This document shows, one piece after another, positions 43,725 through 54,866 of a DNA stretch of 64,000 nt; position 1 is the stretch's first letter, and every line of letters begins with the position of its first letter. The stretch lies in the NCBI GenBank assembly GCA_025964675.1, contig JAOPYI010000062.1, positions 1 to 64,000 of the forward strand, written 5' to 3'. The notes beneath the pieces are model-generated. The model made no database searches, was not told where the DNA came from, and saw only the letters and a program-made list of their open reading frames with translations. The translations under genes were made by a program, and so were the position numbers. This DNA is from Sphaerisporangium sp. GTDB lineage: Bacteria; Actinomycetota; Actinomycetes; Streptosporangiales; Streptosporangiaceae.

Positions 43725-43753
43725 GGCCCTACCCCTTCGTTGGCTCCGGCGAA

Positions 43754-43826
43754 GACCCAGGCGCCCGGCCCCCGCCCCTTTCGCTCCCTGGTGGTAGCCC
43801 ACCCAGACGCGCCAGTCACGTCGCGT
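43754..43826 (-). promoter_or_regulatory. ZTP riboswitch (pfl motif) in the glyA leader
   Basis: On the reverse strand the leader contains CGTGACTGGC (43820-43811), a P2 hairpin with TGGGTGGGCTACCACC followed by AGGGAGCG (43805-43782), and GCGCCTGGGTC (43764-43754). These are the conserved blocks of the pfl/ZTP motif in the right order and spacing. The element begins at the stop codon of the YihY gene and ends 30 bases before the glyA ATG. Confidence 0.85.
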
Positions 43827-44836
43827 TAGACGATAGCGGACTCACCGTTTCGGCTGGTGCCCTCGGCCGGCCACAGGCGGTCGACCTCGGCGTTGAGCGT
43901 CGCGCCGATCAGCACCGCCAGCGCCGTGATGTAGAGCCACAGCAGCACCGCGATGGGGGCCGCCAGGGAGCCGTAGATCGACAGCGGCGAGAACCACGCG
44001 GCCAGCACCTCGCGGAGGACGGCCGCGCAGACGATCCAGATGAGCAGCGCGAGCAGCGCGCCGGGCACCTCCCGCCACCAGCGCGTCCGTACGGCCACGC
44101 TCACGTGGTAGAGCAGGGTGAGGATCAGCACCGACCCGATGACCACCACCGGCCAGTAGAAGACGCTGACCACCACGCTGTACTGGGGCAGCGCTCGTGA
44201 CAGCATCGTCGGCCCCACCACGAGCACGGGGATGACGATCAGGCCGATCACAAGCGCCGCGATGTAGAGGCCGAACGACAGGATGCGTGTGCGGATGATG
44301 CCCCGGGTCTCCCCGAGGCCGTAGGCGATCGAGATGAGGTCGACGTAGACGAACAGCGCCCGCGAGCCCGACCACAGCGCGAGCAGGAAGCCCACGGAGA
44401 TCAGCGAGACCTGGCCGCCCTTCAGCACGTCGTCGAGCAGGGGCTTCACCACACGGTCGACCGTGGTGCCGGTGAACAGCAGGTGGGCCTGCGCGAGCAC
44501 CCACTCGCGGGTCTCGGCCACGGTGCCGGCGCCGAGGATGCCGCTCAGGTGGCCGAGGAGGCCGATCAGCCCGAGGACGAACGGGGGCAGCGACAGCAGC
44601 GCGAAGAACGCCGCCTCGCCCGCGAGCCCGGTCACCCGGTAGTTGAACCCGGCGACCGTGGTCGCGCGGGCCAGCGCCCAGAGCGTGGAGTCCCGGATGG
44701 TCGACCAGGCTTTGGAACCGCGTACGGCTGAAAGGCCGGCGGTGGCGTTCTTGGTGGCCCTGGACCTGACCAACCTCCAGCGAGGCGCCCGCCCCGAGGG
44801 GCCGGACGACCTGGTAGGAGCGTCGGTGGACGTCAT
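43826..44836 (-). CDS. YihY/BrkB-family inner-membrane protein
   Basis: 336 residues from ATG 44836 with six predicted membrane helices (ALLSLPPFVLGLIGLLGHLSG, SLISVGFLLALWSGSRALF, YIAALVIGLIVIPVLVVGP and others) and the family-typical YGLGETRGIIRTRIL and LLWLYITALAVLIGATLNAE. Function of the family is undefined (once misnamed ribonuclease BN). ATG 44860 is possible but has no ribosome-binding site. Its stop abuts the ZTP riboswitch of glyA, so the two may share a transcript. Confidence 0.9.
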   Translation of the reverse strand: MTSTDAPTRSSGPSGRAPRWRLVRSRATKNATAGLSAVRGSKAWSTIRDSTLWALARATTVAGFNYRVTGLAGEAAFFALLSLPPFVLGLIGLLGHLSGILGAGTVAETREWVLAQAHLLFTGTTVDRVVKPLLDDVLKGGQVSLISVGFLLALWSGSRALFVYVDLISIAYGLGETRGIIRTRILSFGLYIAALVIGLIVIPVLVVGPTMLSRALPQYSVVVSVFYWPVVVIGSVLILTLLYHVSVAVRTRWWREVPGALLALLIWIVCAAVLREVLAAWFSPLSIYGSLAAPIAVLLWLYITALAVLIGATLNAEVDRLWPAEGTSRNGESAIV

Positions 44837-45096
44837 GGCATCCAAAGGTATTCGCAACATGGCTCGACGACGACCCCACGCGGCGAGGATCTCGTTCGTG
44901 GCGTCTGCCCCGGGGGGCGCCTCTCTATCGGGTGAGGCATTTGCAACCTCCCATACTAGCTATTTCGGACAAGTCATGCTTGGTCCAATAGCCGGTCACG
45001 GCATGGTCAAAGGAGGCGCCGAGCATGTCCGGCCGGGAGTTCTGACATGGATTACTCATGGGTAACCGAGTCATGTTCCGGAGGAACGGGAGGAAC

Positions 45097-45231
45097 ATGG
45101 AGAACGTGATCTGTGAGAAATGCAAGGCCGACCAGCACGACGAGTGCCGGGGCGGATCCTGGTGCGACTGCCAGCACCGGCCTCCGGACGAGCCGCACGA
45201 GGCTTCGCTCGCGTGGTCACGCCAGGGGTGA
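45097..45231 (+). CDS. 44-residue Cys-rich zinc-knuckle-like protein
   Basis: A short gene with an excellent GGGAGGAAC ribosome-binding site. The protein has Cys6, Cys9, Cys17, Cys23 and Cys25 (VICEKCKADQHDE then GGSWCDCQH) with neighbouring His residues, which suggests one zinc site. It ends one base before an inverted repeat controlling the sulfur leader. I do not recognise a family name. Its position ahead of the sulfur operon may be meaningful, or chance. Confidence 0.7.
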   Translation: MENVICEKCKADQHDECRGGSWCDCQHRPPDEPHEASLAWSRQG

Positions 45232-45282
45232 ATGTCCAAACTGTGGACCGATATTGGACATCCGGCACGCGAAGGGTATCGT
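45232..45282 (+). promoter_or_regulatory. Promoter and operator of the sulfur-assimilation operon
   Basis: ATGTCCAA (45232-45239) and TTGGACAT (45254-45261) form a perfect 8-bp inverted repeat with 14-base centre. The right arm contains the -35 (TTGGAC, 45254-45259). After 17 bases comes the -10 TATCGT (45277-45282). The start point then falls at the A of the leader-peptide ATG (45290), a leaderless transcript. Confidence 0.7.
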
Positions 45283-45289
45283 GTGCGAC

Positions 45290-45373
45290 ATGCCAGTGGA
45301 CCCGCTTCTCGTCGTGCGACGTCACGTCGACTTCCTGCGTGTCCGCAGTGCCATCTGTTGTGACGCCAGTTGA
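45290..45373 (+). CDS. Cys-Cys leader peptide of the sulfite reductase operon
   Basis: A 27-residue leaderless ORF ending RRHVDFLRVRSAICCDAS. Actinobacterial sulfur operons often begin with small peptides of this pattern (RRHVDLxRVxSAxC) with consecutive cysteines near the end, and cysteine-responsive attenuation has been shown for such uORFs in mycobacteria. Tandem TGT codons (45356-45361) are followed by three codons and TGA. The spacing to the downstream hairpins is right for ribosome-controlled attenuation. Confidence 0.85.
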   Translation: MPVDPLLVVRRHVDFLRVRSAICCDAS

Positions 45374-45377
45374 CCGT

Positions 45378-45429
45378 CGCCCCCTGTTGACTTCTGCCAG
45401 CACGGGCGCGTGACAGGCGTCCTTTTCTT
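45378..45429 (+). promoter_or_regulatory. Attenuator: mutually exclusive antiterminator and terminator hairpins
   Basis: GGGCGC (45404-45409) can pair either with GCGTCC (45417-45422), giving a hairpin followed by TTTTCTT (terminator), or, as GGGCG, with upstream CGCCC (45378-45382), an antiterminator aided by an inner CTG/CAG. A ribosome stalled at the Cys codons leaves CGCCC free; one at the stop codon covers it. Confidence 0.7.
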
Positions 45430-45515
45430 GTGCCCCCGCACGCCCCGCCGAGGCGGGAGGCTGCCTGTCCGCGCGTCCGTGTGACCTGATGACCATTCTC
45501 GGCAAAGGACGCACC

Positions 45516-47198
45516 ATGACCAGCCCGCCCAGGCCTGCGAACCGCCACCACAAGCGCCCGCGAGGCGAAGGCCAGTGGGCTCTCGGCTACCGTGAGCCGC
45601 TCAACAAGAACGAGGAGAACAAGAAGAACGACGACGGGCTGAACGTCCGTCAGCGGATCATCGACGTCTACTCGAAGCGGGGCTTCGACTCGATCGACCC
45701 CGCGGACCTGCGCGGACGGTTCCGCTGGTTCGGGCTCTACACCCAGCGCAAGCCGGGCATCGACGGCGGCAAGACGGCGATCCTGGAGCCGGAGGAGCTC
45801 GACGACCGCTACTTCATGCTCCGCGTCCGCATCGACGGCGGCCAGCTCAACCTGGAGCAGCTCCGCGCCATCGCCCACATCGCCAACACCTATGCCAGGG
45901 GCACGGCGGACGTCACCGACCGGCAGAACATCCAGCTCCACTGGATCGAGGTCGAGTCGGTGCCGGCGATCTGGGAGGCGCTGGAGGCGGTCGGGCTGTC
46001 GACCATGGAGGCGTGCGGCGACACCCCGCGTGTCATGCTCGGCTGCCCGCTGGCCGGCATCGACGCCGAGGAGGTCATCGACGCCACCCCCCAGATCGAC
46101 GACACCGTCTCGCGGTACATCGGCGACCAGGCGTTCTCGAACCTCCCCCGCAAGTTCAAGTCGGCGATGAGCGGCTGTCCGGCCCACTGCACTGTGCACG
46201 AGATCAACGACATCGCGTTCGTGGGAGTGGTCGACGAGCACGGCGAGAAGGGGTTCGACCTGTGGGTGGGCGGCGGCCTGTCCACCAACCCGATGCTCGG
46301 CAAGCGGCTCGGCACGTTCGTCCGCCCGGAGCAGGTCCATGAGGTGTGGGCCGGCGTGATCGGCATCTTCCGTGACTACGGGTACCGCCGGCTCCGCCAC
46401 CGTGCCCGCATCAAGTTCCTGGTCAACGACTGGGGGGCCGAGCGATTTCGCGAGGTCCTGGAGAAGGAGTACCTCGGCTACCCGCTGCCCGACGGGCCCG
46501 CGCCCGAGGCGCCCCGGGGCGGCCGCCGTGACCACGTCGGCGTTCACCGGCAGAAGGACGGCAACTACTACGTCGGCTTCGCCCCCAAGGTCGGGCGGCT
46601 CGACGGCGACAAGCTAAGGCTGATCGCCGACATCGCCGAGCGGTACGGCTCCAGCCGCGTCCGCACGACCGTCGAGCAGAAGATGGTCGTCCTCGACATC
46701 GCCCCCGACAAGGTGGACGGCATCGTCGCCGACCTCCAGGCGGCGGACCTCCAGGTCAACCCGAGCACGTTCCGGCGCCAGACGATGGCCTGCACCGGCA
46801 TCGAGTACTGCAAGCTGGCGATCGTCGAGACCAAGGCGCTGGCCTCCTCCCTCATCGACGAGCTGGAGCGCCGCCTGCCCGACTTCACCGACCCCCTGAC
46901 CATCAACGTCAACGGCTGCCCGAACTCCTGTGCCCGCATCCAGGTCGCCGACATCGGCCTGAAGGGCCAGCTCATCACCGACGAGAGCGGCGACCAGGTG
47001 GAGGGCTTCCAGATCCATCTGGGCGGGTCCCTCGGTGTGAACCCCGGCTTCGGCCGCAAGGTCCGCGGGCTCAAGGCCACGGCCGGCGAGCTTCCCGACT
47101 ACGTCGAGCGCGTCCTGAAGAACTACCAGAGCCAGAAGAACGACGGAGAGACCTTCTCCGAGTGGGTGCAGCGCGCCGAGGAAGCGGACCTGAAGTGA
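45516..47198 (+). CDS. sir: Ferredoxin-dependent sulfite (nitrite) reductase
   Basis: 560 residues with the duplicated sulfite/nitrite reductase architecture. The sirohaem/[4Fe-4S] cysteines are in ACTGIEYCKLA and NGCPNSCARIQVAD (C-x5-C ... C-x3-C). Substrate-binding basic residues lie in ADVTDRQNIQLHW and VRTTVEQKMV. It reduces sulfite to sulfide with electrons from ferredoxin, as in NirA/SirA of actinobacteria. The sulfur context decides sulfite over nitrite. ATG 45516 has AAAGGA at good distance; an upstream ATG at 45489 does not. Confidence 0.93.
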   Translation: MTSPPRPANRHHKRPRGEGQWALGYREPLNKNEENKKNDDGLNVRQRIIDVYSKRGFDSIDPADLRGRFRWFGLYTQRKPGIDGGKTAILEPEELDDRYFMLRVRIDGGQLNLEQLRAIAHIANTYARGTADVTDRQNIQLHWIEVESVPAIWEALEAVGLSTMEACGDTPRVMLGCPLAGIDAEEVIDATPQIDDTVSRYIGDQAFSNLPRKFKSAMSGCPAHCTVHEINDIAFVGVVDEHGEKGFDLWVGGGLSTNPMLGKRLGTFVRPEQVHEVWAGVIGIFRDYGYRRLRHRARIKFLVNDWGAERFREVLEKEYLGYPLPDGPAPEAPRGGRRDHVGVHRQKDGNYYVGFAPKVGRLDGDKLRLIADIAERYGSSRVRTTVEQKMVVLDIAPDKVDGIVADLQAADLQVNPSTFRRQTMACTGIEYCKLAIVETKALASSLIDELERRLPDFTDPLTINVNGCPNSCARIQVADIGLKGQLITDESGDQVEGFQIHLGGSLGVNPGFGRKVRGLKATAGELPDYVERVLKNYQSQKNDGETFSEWVQRAEEADLK

Positions 47199-47461: not shown

Positions 47462-48190
47462 ATGACACTGGTGGAGATCGAAACGGGCTTGGAACGCCAA
47501 CGCGGCGTGCTCGACCTGCGGGGCATCGTCGAGTCGGCGTCCGAGTTCCTGGAGGAGGCCTCCGCCCGGGAGATCATCCGCTGGGCCGCGGCGACCTTCG
47601 GCGACCGGCTCTGCCTCACCTCCTCGATGAGCGACGCGCTGCTGATCGACCTCGTCAGCAGGGTCAAGCCGGGTGTCGACGTGCTGTTCATCGACACCGG
47701 CTACCACTTCGCCGAGACGATCGGCACCCGCGACGCCGTTCAGCAGGTGTACGACGTCAACGTGATCAACATCACGCCGTCGCGCACGGTCGAGGAGCAG
47801 GCCCGCGAGCTCGGCCCGCGCCTCAACGGCCGCAACCCCGACCTGTGCTGCTACCTGCGCAAGGTCGAGCCGCTGAACCGCGCGCTCGAGCCGTACCTCG
47901 CGTGGATCTCCGGCATCAGGCGCGACGAGTCCCCCACCCGCACCGGCACCAAGGTCGTGGAGTGGGACGCCAAGCGCCAGATGGTCAAGGTGAACCCCAT
48001 CGCCCGCTGGACGCAGGACGACGTCGACAACTACATGGCCGACAACGGCGTGCTCATCAACCCGCTGCACTACGACGGCTATCCCTCGATCGGCTGCGCC
48101 CCCTGCACCCGTCAGGTCGCCCCAGGCGAGGACCCCCGTAGCGGCCGCTGGGCCGGACTCGGCAAGACCGAGTGCGGCATCCACATCTGA
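47462..48190 (+). CDS. cysH: Adenylyl-sulfate (APS) reductase
   Basis: 242 residues. The PP-loop region is CLTSSMSDALLIDLVS, with VDVLFIDTGYHFAET. Two Cys pairs (DLCCYLRK and GCAPCTR) ligate a [4Fe-4S] cluster, which marks the APS-using type, and the catalytic Cys is in KTECGIHI at the very end. It makes sulfite for the upstream reductase. A 27-codon frame (47382-47464) overlaps both the zinc-ribbon stop and the cysH ATG and may serve only for coupling; AAGGAG lies 13 bases upstream, which is long. Confidence 0.93.
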   Translation: MTLVEIETGLERQRGVLDLRGIVESASEFLEEASAREIIRWAAATFGDRLCLTSSMSDALLIDLVSRVKPGVDVLFIDTGYHFAETIGTRDAVQQVYDVNVINITPSRTVEEQARELGPRLNGRNPDLCCYLRKVEPLNRALEPYLAWISGIRRDESPTRTGTKVVEWDAKRQMVKVNPIARWTQDDVDNYMADNGVLINPLHYDGYPSIGCAPCTRQVAPGEDPRSGRWAGLGKTECGIHI

Positions 48191-49047
48191 CCTCCCTCCC
48201 TCCCGACACCATCCAAGGTCCGCCTCTGAACTCCATCCAAGGTCCGCCTCTGGCCCTCCAAGGCCGACCTCTGACGTCCTTTCCGGGGCGCCTCCGGCCG
48301 CTGGTGGCGGTGGCGCACGGGTCACGCGACCCGCGCGCCTCCGCGACGGTGGAAGCCCTCCTGGACGAGGTACGGCTCGCGCGACCCGGCCTCCCGGTCC
48401 ACGCGGCCTACCTCGACCACTCCCGGCCATCCCTAGGCGAGGCGCTGGCGGGTCTGGACGAGGCCGTGGTACTGCCCTTGCTGCTCACCGAGGCCTACCA
48501 CAGCCGCGTCGACATCCCCTCCGCGCTGGGACAGGCGCGGGCGAGCCGTCCTCGGCTCCGCGTCCACCAGGGGGCCACGCTCGGCCCGCACCCGTTGCTG
48601 ATCACAGCCCTGGAGCGCCGGCTGGCGGAGGCCGGCGTGCGGATCGGCGACCCGGACACGGCCGTGGTCCTGGTCTCGGCGGGCTCAAGCGACCGGCGGG
48701 CCAACGCGGTGATCGCCCACCTGGCCCGCACCTGGGCACGCTCAGGCGGCTGGCACTCGGTCACCCCCGCCTACGCCTCCGCCGCCTCCCCCACTCCCGA
48801 GGAAGCTGTGCTGAGGCTCCTCCACGGCGGTCCAAACCGCGTCGTGGTCGCGCCCTACCTGCTCGCCTCCGGCCACTTCGCCGACAAGGTCCGCCGGAAC
48901 ACCCTGGAAGCGGGGGCCTGCGCCGTGGCCGACCCTCTCGGCCCGGCCCCCGAGCTGGTCACCGTCCTGCTCGAACGCTATGCGCAGGCCGTACGGACGT
49001 CCGGCGCCACCGCGAGGACCGGCGAGACCGCCCCAGTTCGGCCCTGA
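48172..49047 (+). CDS. Sirohydrochlorin chelatase (CbiX/SirB-like)
   Basis: The recognisable protein begins LVAVAHGSRDPRASATVEAL and has VVLPLLLTEAYHSRVDIP and VVVAPYLLASGHFADKVR, the metal-binding His pattern of a duplicated CbiX-type chelatase that inserts iron into sirohydrochlorin for the sulfite reductase. The frame opens with GTG 48172 inside cysH, with no ribosome-binding site. Before VAVAHGSR lie 40 unconserved residues made of an IQGPPL repeat, so GTG 48304 is an alternative start. Position in the operon fits sirohaem supply. Confidence 0.85.
   Translation: MRHPHLTSLPPDTIQGPPLNSIQGPPLALQGRPLTSFPGRLRPLVAVAHGSRDPRASATVEALLDEVRLARPGLPVHAAYLDHSRPSLGEALAGLDEAVVLPLLLTEAYHSRVDIPSALGQARASRPRLRVHQGATLGPHPLLITALERRLAEAGVRIGDPDTAVVLVSAGSSDRRANAVIAHLARTWARSGGWHSVTPAYASAASPTPEEAVLRLLHGGPNRVVVAPYLLASGHFADKVRRNTLEAGACAVADPLGPAPELVTVLLERYAQAVRTSGATARTGETAPVRP
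48211..48273 (+). repeat. Short tandem repeat at the start of the chelatase gene
   Basis: ATCCAAGGTCCGCCTCTG occurs at 48211-48228 and 48235-48252 (period 24), with a diverged third copy at 48256-48273. It lies just after the cysH stop. Confidence 0.8.
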
Positions 49048-54742: not shown

Positions 54743-54866
54743 GGACTCACCGCCTGCGGTGAGGCGCACCTAGGGTTCCGCCCTCCCCGACGCGTGAGGG
54801 GCTGGTCCAAGAGGTGCAGGCGGCCTAGGCCGTTCCACGGCGGGACAAAAACCCGGGAGACAGTCT
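54743..54866 (+). promoter_or_regulatory. Guanidine-I riboswitch (ykkC class)
   Basis: The conserved ykkC blocks are all present in order: ACCTAGGGTTCCG (54768-54780), GCTGGTCCAAGAGGTG (54801-54816) and ACGGCGGGACAAAAACCCGG (54837-54856) followed by GAGACAG. A hairpin GCCTC/GAGGC (54875-54890) follows and may be part of the expression platform. It lies 44 bases before the ureohydrolase start codon. Confidence 0.93.

Follow-up and report, generated by a model that had tools for sequence, protein, structure and literature searches.

In the present study, the leader region upstream of a nirA-type gene was analysed in Sphaerisporangium sp. (assembly GCA_025964675.1), within a stretch of 64,000 nucleotides, positions 1 to 64,000 of contig JAOPYI010000062.1, hereafter the window. 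This region very likely holds a cysteine-responsive attenuator of some kind, and it appears reasonably probable that the attenuator is ribosome-mediated, controls the nirA-cysH operon and acts through a terminator; for its main output, transcription termination is the preferred reading, though an unproven one. An earlier note on this DNA had described such an element from the letters alone. The observation itself is confirmed and its interpretation is supported in part. The named elements lie where that note had placed them (TGTTGT at 45356-45361, CGCCC, GGGCGC, GCGTCC at 45417-45422 and TTTTCTT at 45423-45429), although the second Cys codon and the stop TGA are 9 bases apart, a gap that had been given as 10. 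The features involved are as follows.

45290-45373, forward strand: leader open reading frame MPVDPLLVVRRHVDFLRVRSAICCDAS, 27 residues, with stop TGA at 45371-45373; matches NF042934, with its core in 81/81 nirA loci
45356-45358, forward strand: invariant codon UGU (Cys, motif position 14), the proposed sensor; UGU in 81/81 nirA loci and in 94/94 class-wide leaders
45359-45361, forward strand: second Cys codon, non-conserved; tandem Cys in 29/81 nirA loci
45362-45367, forward strand: arm 1, GACGCC, lying inside the leader and complementary to arm 4; other genera and families have different, again complementary, sequences
45378-45382, forward strand: arm 2, CGCCC, 5' arm of the putative antiterminator (helix 2:3)
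45404-45409, forward strand: arm 3, GGGCGC, common to the putative antiterminator and terminator, as seen in the sequence and the alignment
45416-45422, forward strand: arm 4, GGCGTCC, 3' arm of the putative terminator and also the partner of arm 1, from alignment and folding
45423-45429, forward strand: T-tract TTTTCTT, directly after arm 4
45463-45478, forward strand: arm 5, GCCTG (45463-45467), and arm 6, GCGTCC (45473-45478), which can pair with arms 4 and 3; arm 6 can alternatively pair with the nirA Shine-Dalgarno site
45504-45512, forward strand: arm 7, the nirA Shine-Dalgarno site AAAGGACGC, maskable by arm 6

The set of nirA loci comprised 81 members, namely the window and the 80 best NirA loci, and a 30-row alignment was made of the window and 29 Streptosporangiaceae rows outside Nonomuraea, the genera of these rows all being Streptosporangiaceae. 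First, the leader resembles a family that is already known, and what differs here is the hairpin with a T-tract and the invariant rare Cys codon. The window leader aligned over the whole NF042934 cis_reg_atten profile (1-19 of 19) with an E value of 9.2e-6 and 25.2 bits, under the cut-off of 27, and a Nonomuraea counterpart scored 37.3 bits, above the cut-off. The window leader also matched NF042936 leader_Ms4527A (21.1 bits, E 1.7e-4, under the cut-off of 45) and, more weakly than NF042934, the mycobacterial Ms5788A model, likewise under its cut-off. The leader core was observed upstream of nirA in all 81 loci, reading RRHVD in 80 and RLHVD in one (L044). Because the ratio of nonsynonymous to synonymous polymorphism (pN/pS) over the 14 codons of this core was only 0.114 (80 loci, L044 left out), the peptide is kept beyond the codon alone. 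Matches to NF042934 with E <= 0.001 were found in 110/148 genomes of the class and in 0/14 control genomes; in a looser search (E up to 10), 10 of the 14 control genomes also matched, and the weak matches of that search are no evidence by score.

Second, the codon at motif position 14 does not vary. In a class-wide set of 94 leaders (5 from the window's own genome, the window's leader excluded, plus 29 and 60; 26 families by label), two of which share their core with a nirA locus already counted, UGU was observed at this position in 84/84 leaders by pattern matching and in all of the remaining 10, which were read individually. It is likewise UGU in all 81 nirA loci, whose nirA genes use UGC 630 times versus UGU 37 times, and at the other Cys codons of the 84 class-wide leaders the UGC:UGU counts were 45:3 at position 7, 28:6 at position 12, 4:0 at position 13 and 25:10 at later positions. 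When 90 leaders were aligned on this Cys, codon 14 was the sole one among 19 codons with an invariant third base. The nirA leaders carry a single Cys at position 14 in 52/81 loci and a tandem in the others, with no tract of Cys codons as in mycobacteria, so that the constant is the single UGU and not the tandem pair that had been taken as the sensor. In addition, G directly after codon 14 was absent from all 81 nirA loci and from the 92 correctly placed class-wide leaders (93 next bases were picked, one of them in the wrong frame, and L081 was not included), compared with 193/667 of the Cys codons in nirA genes and 9/37 where these are UGU. The absence of G could instead be a rule on residue 15, because with G in first place a codon can only specify V, A, D, E or G, and the Fisher values for this comparison overstate independence, since the class-wide leaders are nearly all the best-scoring of their search and the sequences are related.

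UGU and UGC are presumably decoded by one common tRNA. We tentatively suggest, as a possibility rather than as our expectation, that the leader does not simply count Cys codons and is a composite sensor, in which the conserved nascent chain (RRxVDxxRV, located 13 to 5 residues ahead of the Cys codon) would prime the ribosome and an obligatory, weakly decoded UGU at a fixed distance would act as the trigger, throughout the class Actinomycetes and whichever output follows, terminator or Shine-Dalgarno masking. If this were true, the use of UGU over UGC would make the leader sensitive to more than the level of charging, such as whether the decoding tRNA-Cys is sulfur-modified or unmodified. A one-base change of the invariant UGU to UGC, which leaves the amino acid unchanged, would probe what the ribosome senses. 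In the literature searched, a coverage outside which subscription papers mostly fall, no earlier mention was found of this UGU codon, nor of terminators accompanying leaders of this family.

Third, the RNA arms are conserved and complementary. Helices 1:4 and 2:3 can coexist, and helix 3:4 is the putative terminator helix. Helix 1:4 (GACGCC:GGCGTC) was fully paired across the 30 rows (100% of cells), and a single change affected both of its sides. The 'complete' attenuator of the earlier note leaves out this helix (45362-45367:45416-45421), and it is this helix whose arms read differently, yet stay complementary, in other families. The arm 1 and partner sequences, as read by eye from the duplex output without a tree, are GACGCC/GGCGTC in the window group, TGCGACGC/GCGTCGCA in Nonomuraea, GGTGACGCC/GGCGTCACC in Actinomadura, CAACGTCGGC/GCCGACGTTG in Streptomonospora, AGCGTCGGT/ACCGGCGCT in Nocardiopsis and TTGACACTG/CGGTGTCAG in L048 (Actinoallomurus). 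Duplexes of arm 1 were scored in 77/81 loci, L029 being among those left out; 39 of the 77 beat at least 95/100 shuffles and 38 do not, and several rows prefer another duplex.

Fourth, the local pairing of arm 4 depends on the position of the ribosome in folding. Transcripts ending just after the T-tract were folded for the 30 rows, with only the RNA 3' of the ribosome free to fold. Averaged over the rows, pairing of the five 3'-terminal bases of arm 4 was 0.97 for ribosome-free RNA, 0.31 for a ribosome holding UGU in its A site and 0.88 for one at the stop codon, compared with 0.57, 0.54 and 0.52 in the same three states for 1200 shuffles, and the switch was observed in 25/30 rows versus 14.1% of these shuffles. 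In a codon scan with the ribosome edge at P+15, pairing remained at least 0.97 through codon -3, reached its lowest value at the Cys codon and had recovered at the stop. In the window itself the values were 1.00 free, 0.43 stalled and 1.00 at the stop. The proposal of mutually exclusive hairpins is borne out insofar as the choice depends on ribosome position by folding; the minimum of arm 4 pairing falls on the Cys codon or no more than one codon away from it, according to the footprint edge.

Fifth, the T-tract is frequent in this lineage. At least 5 T in the 8 nucleotides after arm 4 were present in 20/30 rows, and TTTT within 75 nucleotides of the leader stop was present in 21/30 Streptosporangiaceae rows outside Nonomuraea versus 66/4050 random 75-nucleotide windows. 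The same TTTT was present in 6/16 Nonomuraea loci and in 6/35 others, so the T-tract, which the window indeed has, is commonest in one lineage, and the leader is class-wide. Among the 21 rows with TTTT, only the window carries tandem Cys. A further hairpin follows the T-tract at 45434-45462 (CCCGC..GCGGG), appearing as CTCAC..GTGAG in Microbispora rows, as read by eye in the 30-row alignment.

For the window alone, the fold z-score was -1.74 and those of sub-folds ranged from -0.2 to -1.7, and terminator-like sites numbered one in 700 bases, with 0.3 expected, and six in 20 kb, with 4.6 expected. These window-only signals are weak, and the strength lies in the comparison across loci. Such unremarkable single-sequence scores, together with two helices lacking covariation, would suit an explanation in which conservation of the leader has some other cause and the hairpins arise by chance in a spacer rich in G+C; we regard this as very improbable, as the excess of switching rows over shuffles, the frequency of the T-tract, the complementarity of arm 1 and its partner in differing sequences and the match to a known leader family all argue against it.

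We propose the following mechanism. Its arms, their conservation and the position-dependent folding up to the T-tract come from computation, and a leaderless start, real termination and cysteine as the signal are what we infer. Transcription would start at the leader AUG, and a ribosome would load at once. When charged Cys-tRNA is short, the ribosome would halt with UGU 45356-45358 in the A site, covering arm 1 and leaving arm 2 free. Arm 2 would then capture arm 3, arm 4 would be left without a local stem, and the polymerase would run past the T-tract into nirA. When cysteine is plentiful, the ribosome would reach the stop codon and cover arms 1 and 2, and arms 3 and 4 would make the terminator stem. 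With no ribosome, helices 1:4 and 2:3 would combine into one long stem, again directly next to the T-tract.

Several points weigh against this mechanism. The 30 rows were picked by genus after an earlier alignment had been seen, and several are near-identical. In these rows helix 2:3 was paired in 97.2% of the scored cells with zero pairs changed on both sides, and helix 3:4 was paired in 93.9% with covariation equal to that of shuffles, the arms being nearly invariant in both; because they scarcely vary, the alignment cannot choose between the two helices. The window's own 1:4 helix is ordinary when compared with shuffles (12/100 as good), the terminator stem has 6 pairs, and TTTT within 75 nucleotides is missing in 9/30 rows, 10/16 Nonomuraea loci and 29/35 others. 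The number of switching rows also varies with the ribosome edge, being 18, 25 and 17 of 30 for P+13, P+15 and P+17, and the minimum shifts to codon +1 at P+13 (0.26) and to codon -1 at P+17 (0.36). When pairing across the ribosome was allowed, the local stem was nearly gone in the stalled state (0.03-0.06), and the stem at the stop codon reached just 0.32-0.34, with 9-10/30 rows switching. In the window, the exact 2:3 register reached just 0.10 in the stalled state, despite the fall in arm 4 pairing. With full-length RNA at equilibrium, helix 1:4 exceeded 0.5 in 10/30 rows and was 0.01 in the window, where arm 3 instead pairs with arm 6 and arm 4 with arm 5, both further downstream. The model accordingly depends on folding that precedes synthesis of the downstream RNA.

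In these models, stalling is predicted to abolish the local stem under all assumptions tried, and the return of the stem at the stop codon is assumption-dependent. The ribosome-position-dependent choice between antiterminator and terminator is obtained by folding only if the RNA 3' of the ribosome alone folds. Likewise, the suggestion that reaching the stop codon masks the antiterminator holds if the RNA behind the ribosome is barred from pairing, and otherwise it does not. A scan with all upstream RNA free to pair was set aside; it concealed the switch, the leader RNA behind the ribosome being a partner for arm 4, and local and across-ribosome pairing were then separated. Counting helices 2:3 and 3:4 as supported by covariation was also dropped, for lack of two-sided change in the one and for shuffle-level covariation in the other.

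Arms 5 to 7 allow a different output. In translational attenuation, the stalled ribosome would free arms 3 and 4 for arms 6 and 5, thereby releasing the nirA Shine-Dalgarno site from arm 6, with the T-tract then either incidental or added in a particular lineage only. The covariation of helices 3:6 and 4:5 (0.144 versus 0.085 shuffled, with 0/500 shuffles as high) and the pairing of helix 6:7 alone (88.8% versus a maximum of 87.1% in 500 row permutations) agree with this explanation, although related sequences inflate such counts. Moreover, Nonomuraea and other genera retain the leader and arm 1 with fewer T-tracts, and translation attenuation is the mode given for the cys leaders of mycobacteria in the available portions of PMC13236596 and PMC9031893, which cite Canestrari et al. 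2020. However, in the 30 rows the accessibility of the Shine-Dalgarno site at equilibrium did not follow where the ribosome sat (means of 0.48-0.55), and covering arm 1 lowered this accessibility from 0.51 to 0.36-0.38 in 15 Nonomuraea rows; this folding used a wrong stretch for L029 and left out L036, in which no Shine-Dalgarno site was recognised. In the window, helices 3:6 and 4:5 dominate without a ribosome (0.86 and 0.99), and 3:6 falls to 0.35 in the stalled state, the opposite of what the translational model predicts. For the combination of helices 1:4, 2:3 and 6:7, a slide by +2 columns scored a covariation of 0.138 compared with the observed 0.130, and translational attenuation leaves the T-tracts in 21/30 rows unexplained. 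We consider it rather unlikely that translational attenuation alone operates here; it may coexist with termination. An equilibrium Shine-Dalgarno switch was also dropped as a candidate, as accessibility does not track ribosome position.

Each of the two sets of helices has its arms present in the same 30 rows, which would be consistent with terminator and Shine-Dalgarno masking acting in series, the terminator sealing the leak that arises when a ribosome is on the stop codon. This arrangement has more parts than needed, both of its outputs are predicted ones, and the folding evidence against translational switching also affects it; we consider it less likely still than translational attenuation. 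Returning to attenuation through the terminator, the T-tract-bearing form is new to a leader family that, in the sources as far as available, has been described as translational or as lacking obvious terminators, and the comparison suggests how one sensor may serve different outputs in neighbouring genera.

The region ahead of the leader contains two further elements.

45254-45282, forward strand: predicted promoter TTGGAC-17-TATCGT, 7 nucleotides before the leader ATG, with the predicted transcript start at or adjacent to the AUG
45234-45248, forward strand: inverted repeat GTCCA-N5-TGGAC upstream of the -35 element, a candidate operator from its sequence

A promoter scan of the window scores TGGACA, which overlaps TTGGAC. 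A -10-like TA[TG]..T, 6-8 nucleotides ahead of the ATG, was observed in 30/30 Streptosporangiaceae rows outside Nonomuraea. Among the 77/81 upstream regions that were scored (L044, L046, L047 and L048 were left out), TGGACA was present in 75, and a Shine-Dalgarno-like site before the leader AUG was present in 0. The spacing from promoter to ATG and the absence of such a site from these regions fit a leaderless start, which suggests that the leader transcript is leaderless. The reading of the element as a Cys leader of leaderless type ahead of a sulfur operon is supported. Its left border had been placed at 45232, a loose limit that takes in the promoter; the ATG at that border opens another frame, ending at 45363, and the Cys-Cys leader starts at 45290. 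The motif GTCC-N6-8-GGAC was found in 49/77 loci, with a symmetrical but altered form in other genera, and the inverted repeat is possibly the operator of some regulator. In Actinomadura rows, a GTCCG-N5-CGGAC variant of the repeat was noted by eye. A small Cys-rich open reading frame (45058-45231) with the pattern CxxC..H..C..WCDCQH separates the leader promoter from the divergent gene upstream; its Pfam zinc-finger match is weak, below the cut-off, and a counterpart is present upstream of nirA in 57/80 relatives.

Mycobacterial polycysteine leaderless short open reading frames were reportedly characterised by Canestrari et al. in 2020, with Ms4527A upstream of nirA and Ms5788A upstream of the cysA2 locus. 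The window family shares with the mycobacterial leaders a predicted leaderless-type start, the RRxVDxxRV core, Cys near the end and the nirA context, as far as the available part of PMC4633059 goes, in which Cys leaders were proposed in mycobacteria, nirA included. Two leaders of the class-wide set (L095 and L097) reach the cut-off of the Ms5788A model and match NF042934 as well, which the window leader does below the cut-off. In contrast, the window family has one or two Cys and a T-tract hairpin, whereas the mycobacterial leaders, in the accounts as available, have a polycysteine tract and a translational output. The NF042934 model covers the peptide only, without RNA structure, and the window peptide falls below its cut-off. 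The cys leaders of Seliverstov et al. 2005, in the accessible text of PMC1262725, are likewise Cys-codon leaders ahead of cys genes in Actinobacteria, but those are without obvious terminators, and the window has a T-tract hairpin with pairing that depends on ribosome position. A similar layout, uORFC-8-2 upstream of cysS in Rhodobacterales, has tandem Cys, two stems, a U-run and a proposed ribosome-mediated transcription attenuation (PMC8632094, as available in part); it belongs to other bacteria and to another gene, and UGC dominates there, unlike the invariant UGU at position 14 here. With the trp, his and leu attenuators, as presented in the part of PMC1183508 at hand, the window shares regulatory codons, competing structures and the importance of codon choice (the leu CUA paradigm); it differs in its single conserved regulatory codon, its predicted leaderless start and the strongly conserved peptide before the codon. 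In the accessible part of a reannotation of S. lividans (PMC8079986), eight leader peptides are given, none of them assigned to cysteine.

The genes downstream of the leader are the following.

45516-47198, forward strand: NirA-type sulfite/nitrite reductase, the putative regulated gene (NIR_SIR E 2e-59, NIR_SIR_ferr E 1e-41)
47462-48190, forward strand: cysH, PAPS/APS reductase (NF002537 E 1e-79, above the cut-off)
48172-49047, forward strand: CbiX-domain protein of sirohydrochlorin chelatase type (PF01903 E 9.5e-38)

Judging from their order and strand, nirA, cysH and the CbiX-type gene likely form one operon, and the distance from the leader end to the nirA start is 142 nucleotides. The leader is therefore placed upstream of sulfur/cysteine genes (nirA type, cysH and CbiX), as the mycobacterial cysteine attenuators are. 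In the profile search, the NirA-type protein matched no NCBIfam equivalog at its cut-off, and sulfite versus nitrite is therefore not settled by these models. Its best two relatives, with 92-93% identity, are from Sphaerisporangium, in a search that may omit the window's own genome.

That genome (7.77 Mb, 313 contigs) has five further leaders of the same type, of which the last two below were accepted by eye from the motif.

L081, E < 1e-5: precedes an NMT1-type binding protein
L082, E < 1e-5: precedes a 2-oxoacid:ferredoxin oxidoreductase gene, itself no obvious sulfur gene
L083, E < 1e-5: precedes a DUF4395 gene, then a rhodanese
L085, E 0.06-0.08: precedes flavin reductases
L086, E 0.06-0.08: precedes an NMT1-type binding protein

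An Rfam family at the leader was ruled out, the gathering thresholds giving solely a Guanidine-I and a ZTP riboswitch in the window. The ZTP riboswitch lies at 43748-43829 on the reverse strand (40.2 bits versus a threshold of 39) and immediately precedes a serine hydroxymethyltransferase-like gene, named by eye, and the Guanidine-I riboswitch is located at 54759-54861 on the forward strand.

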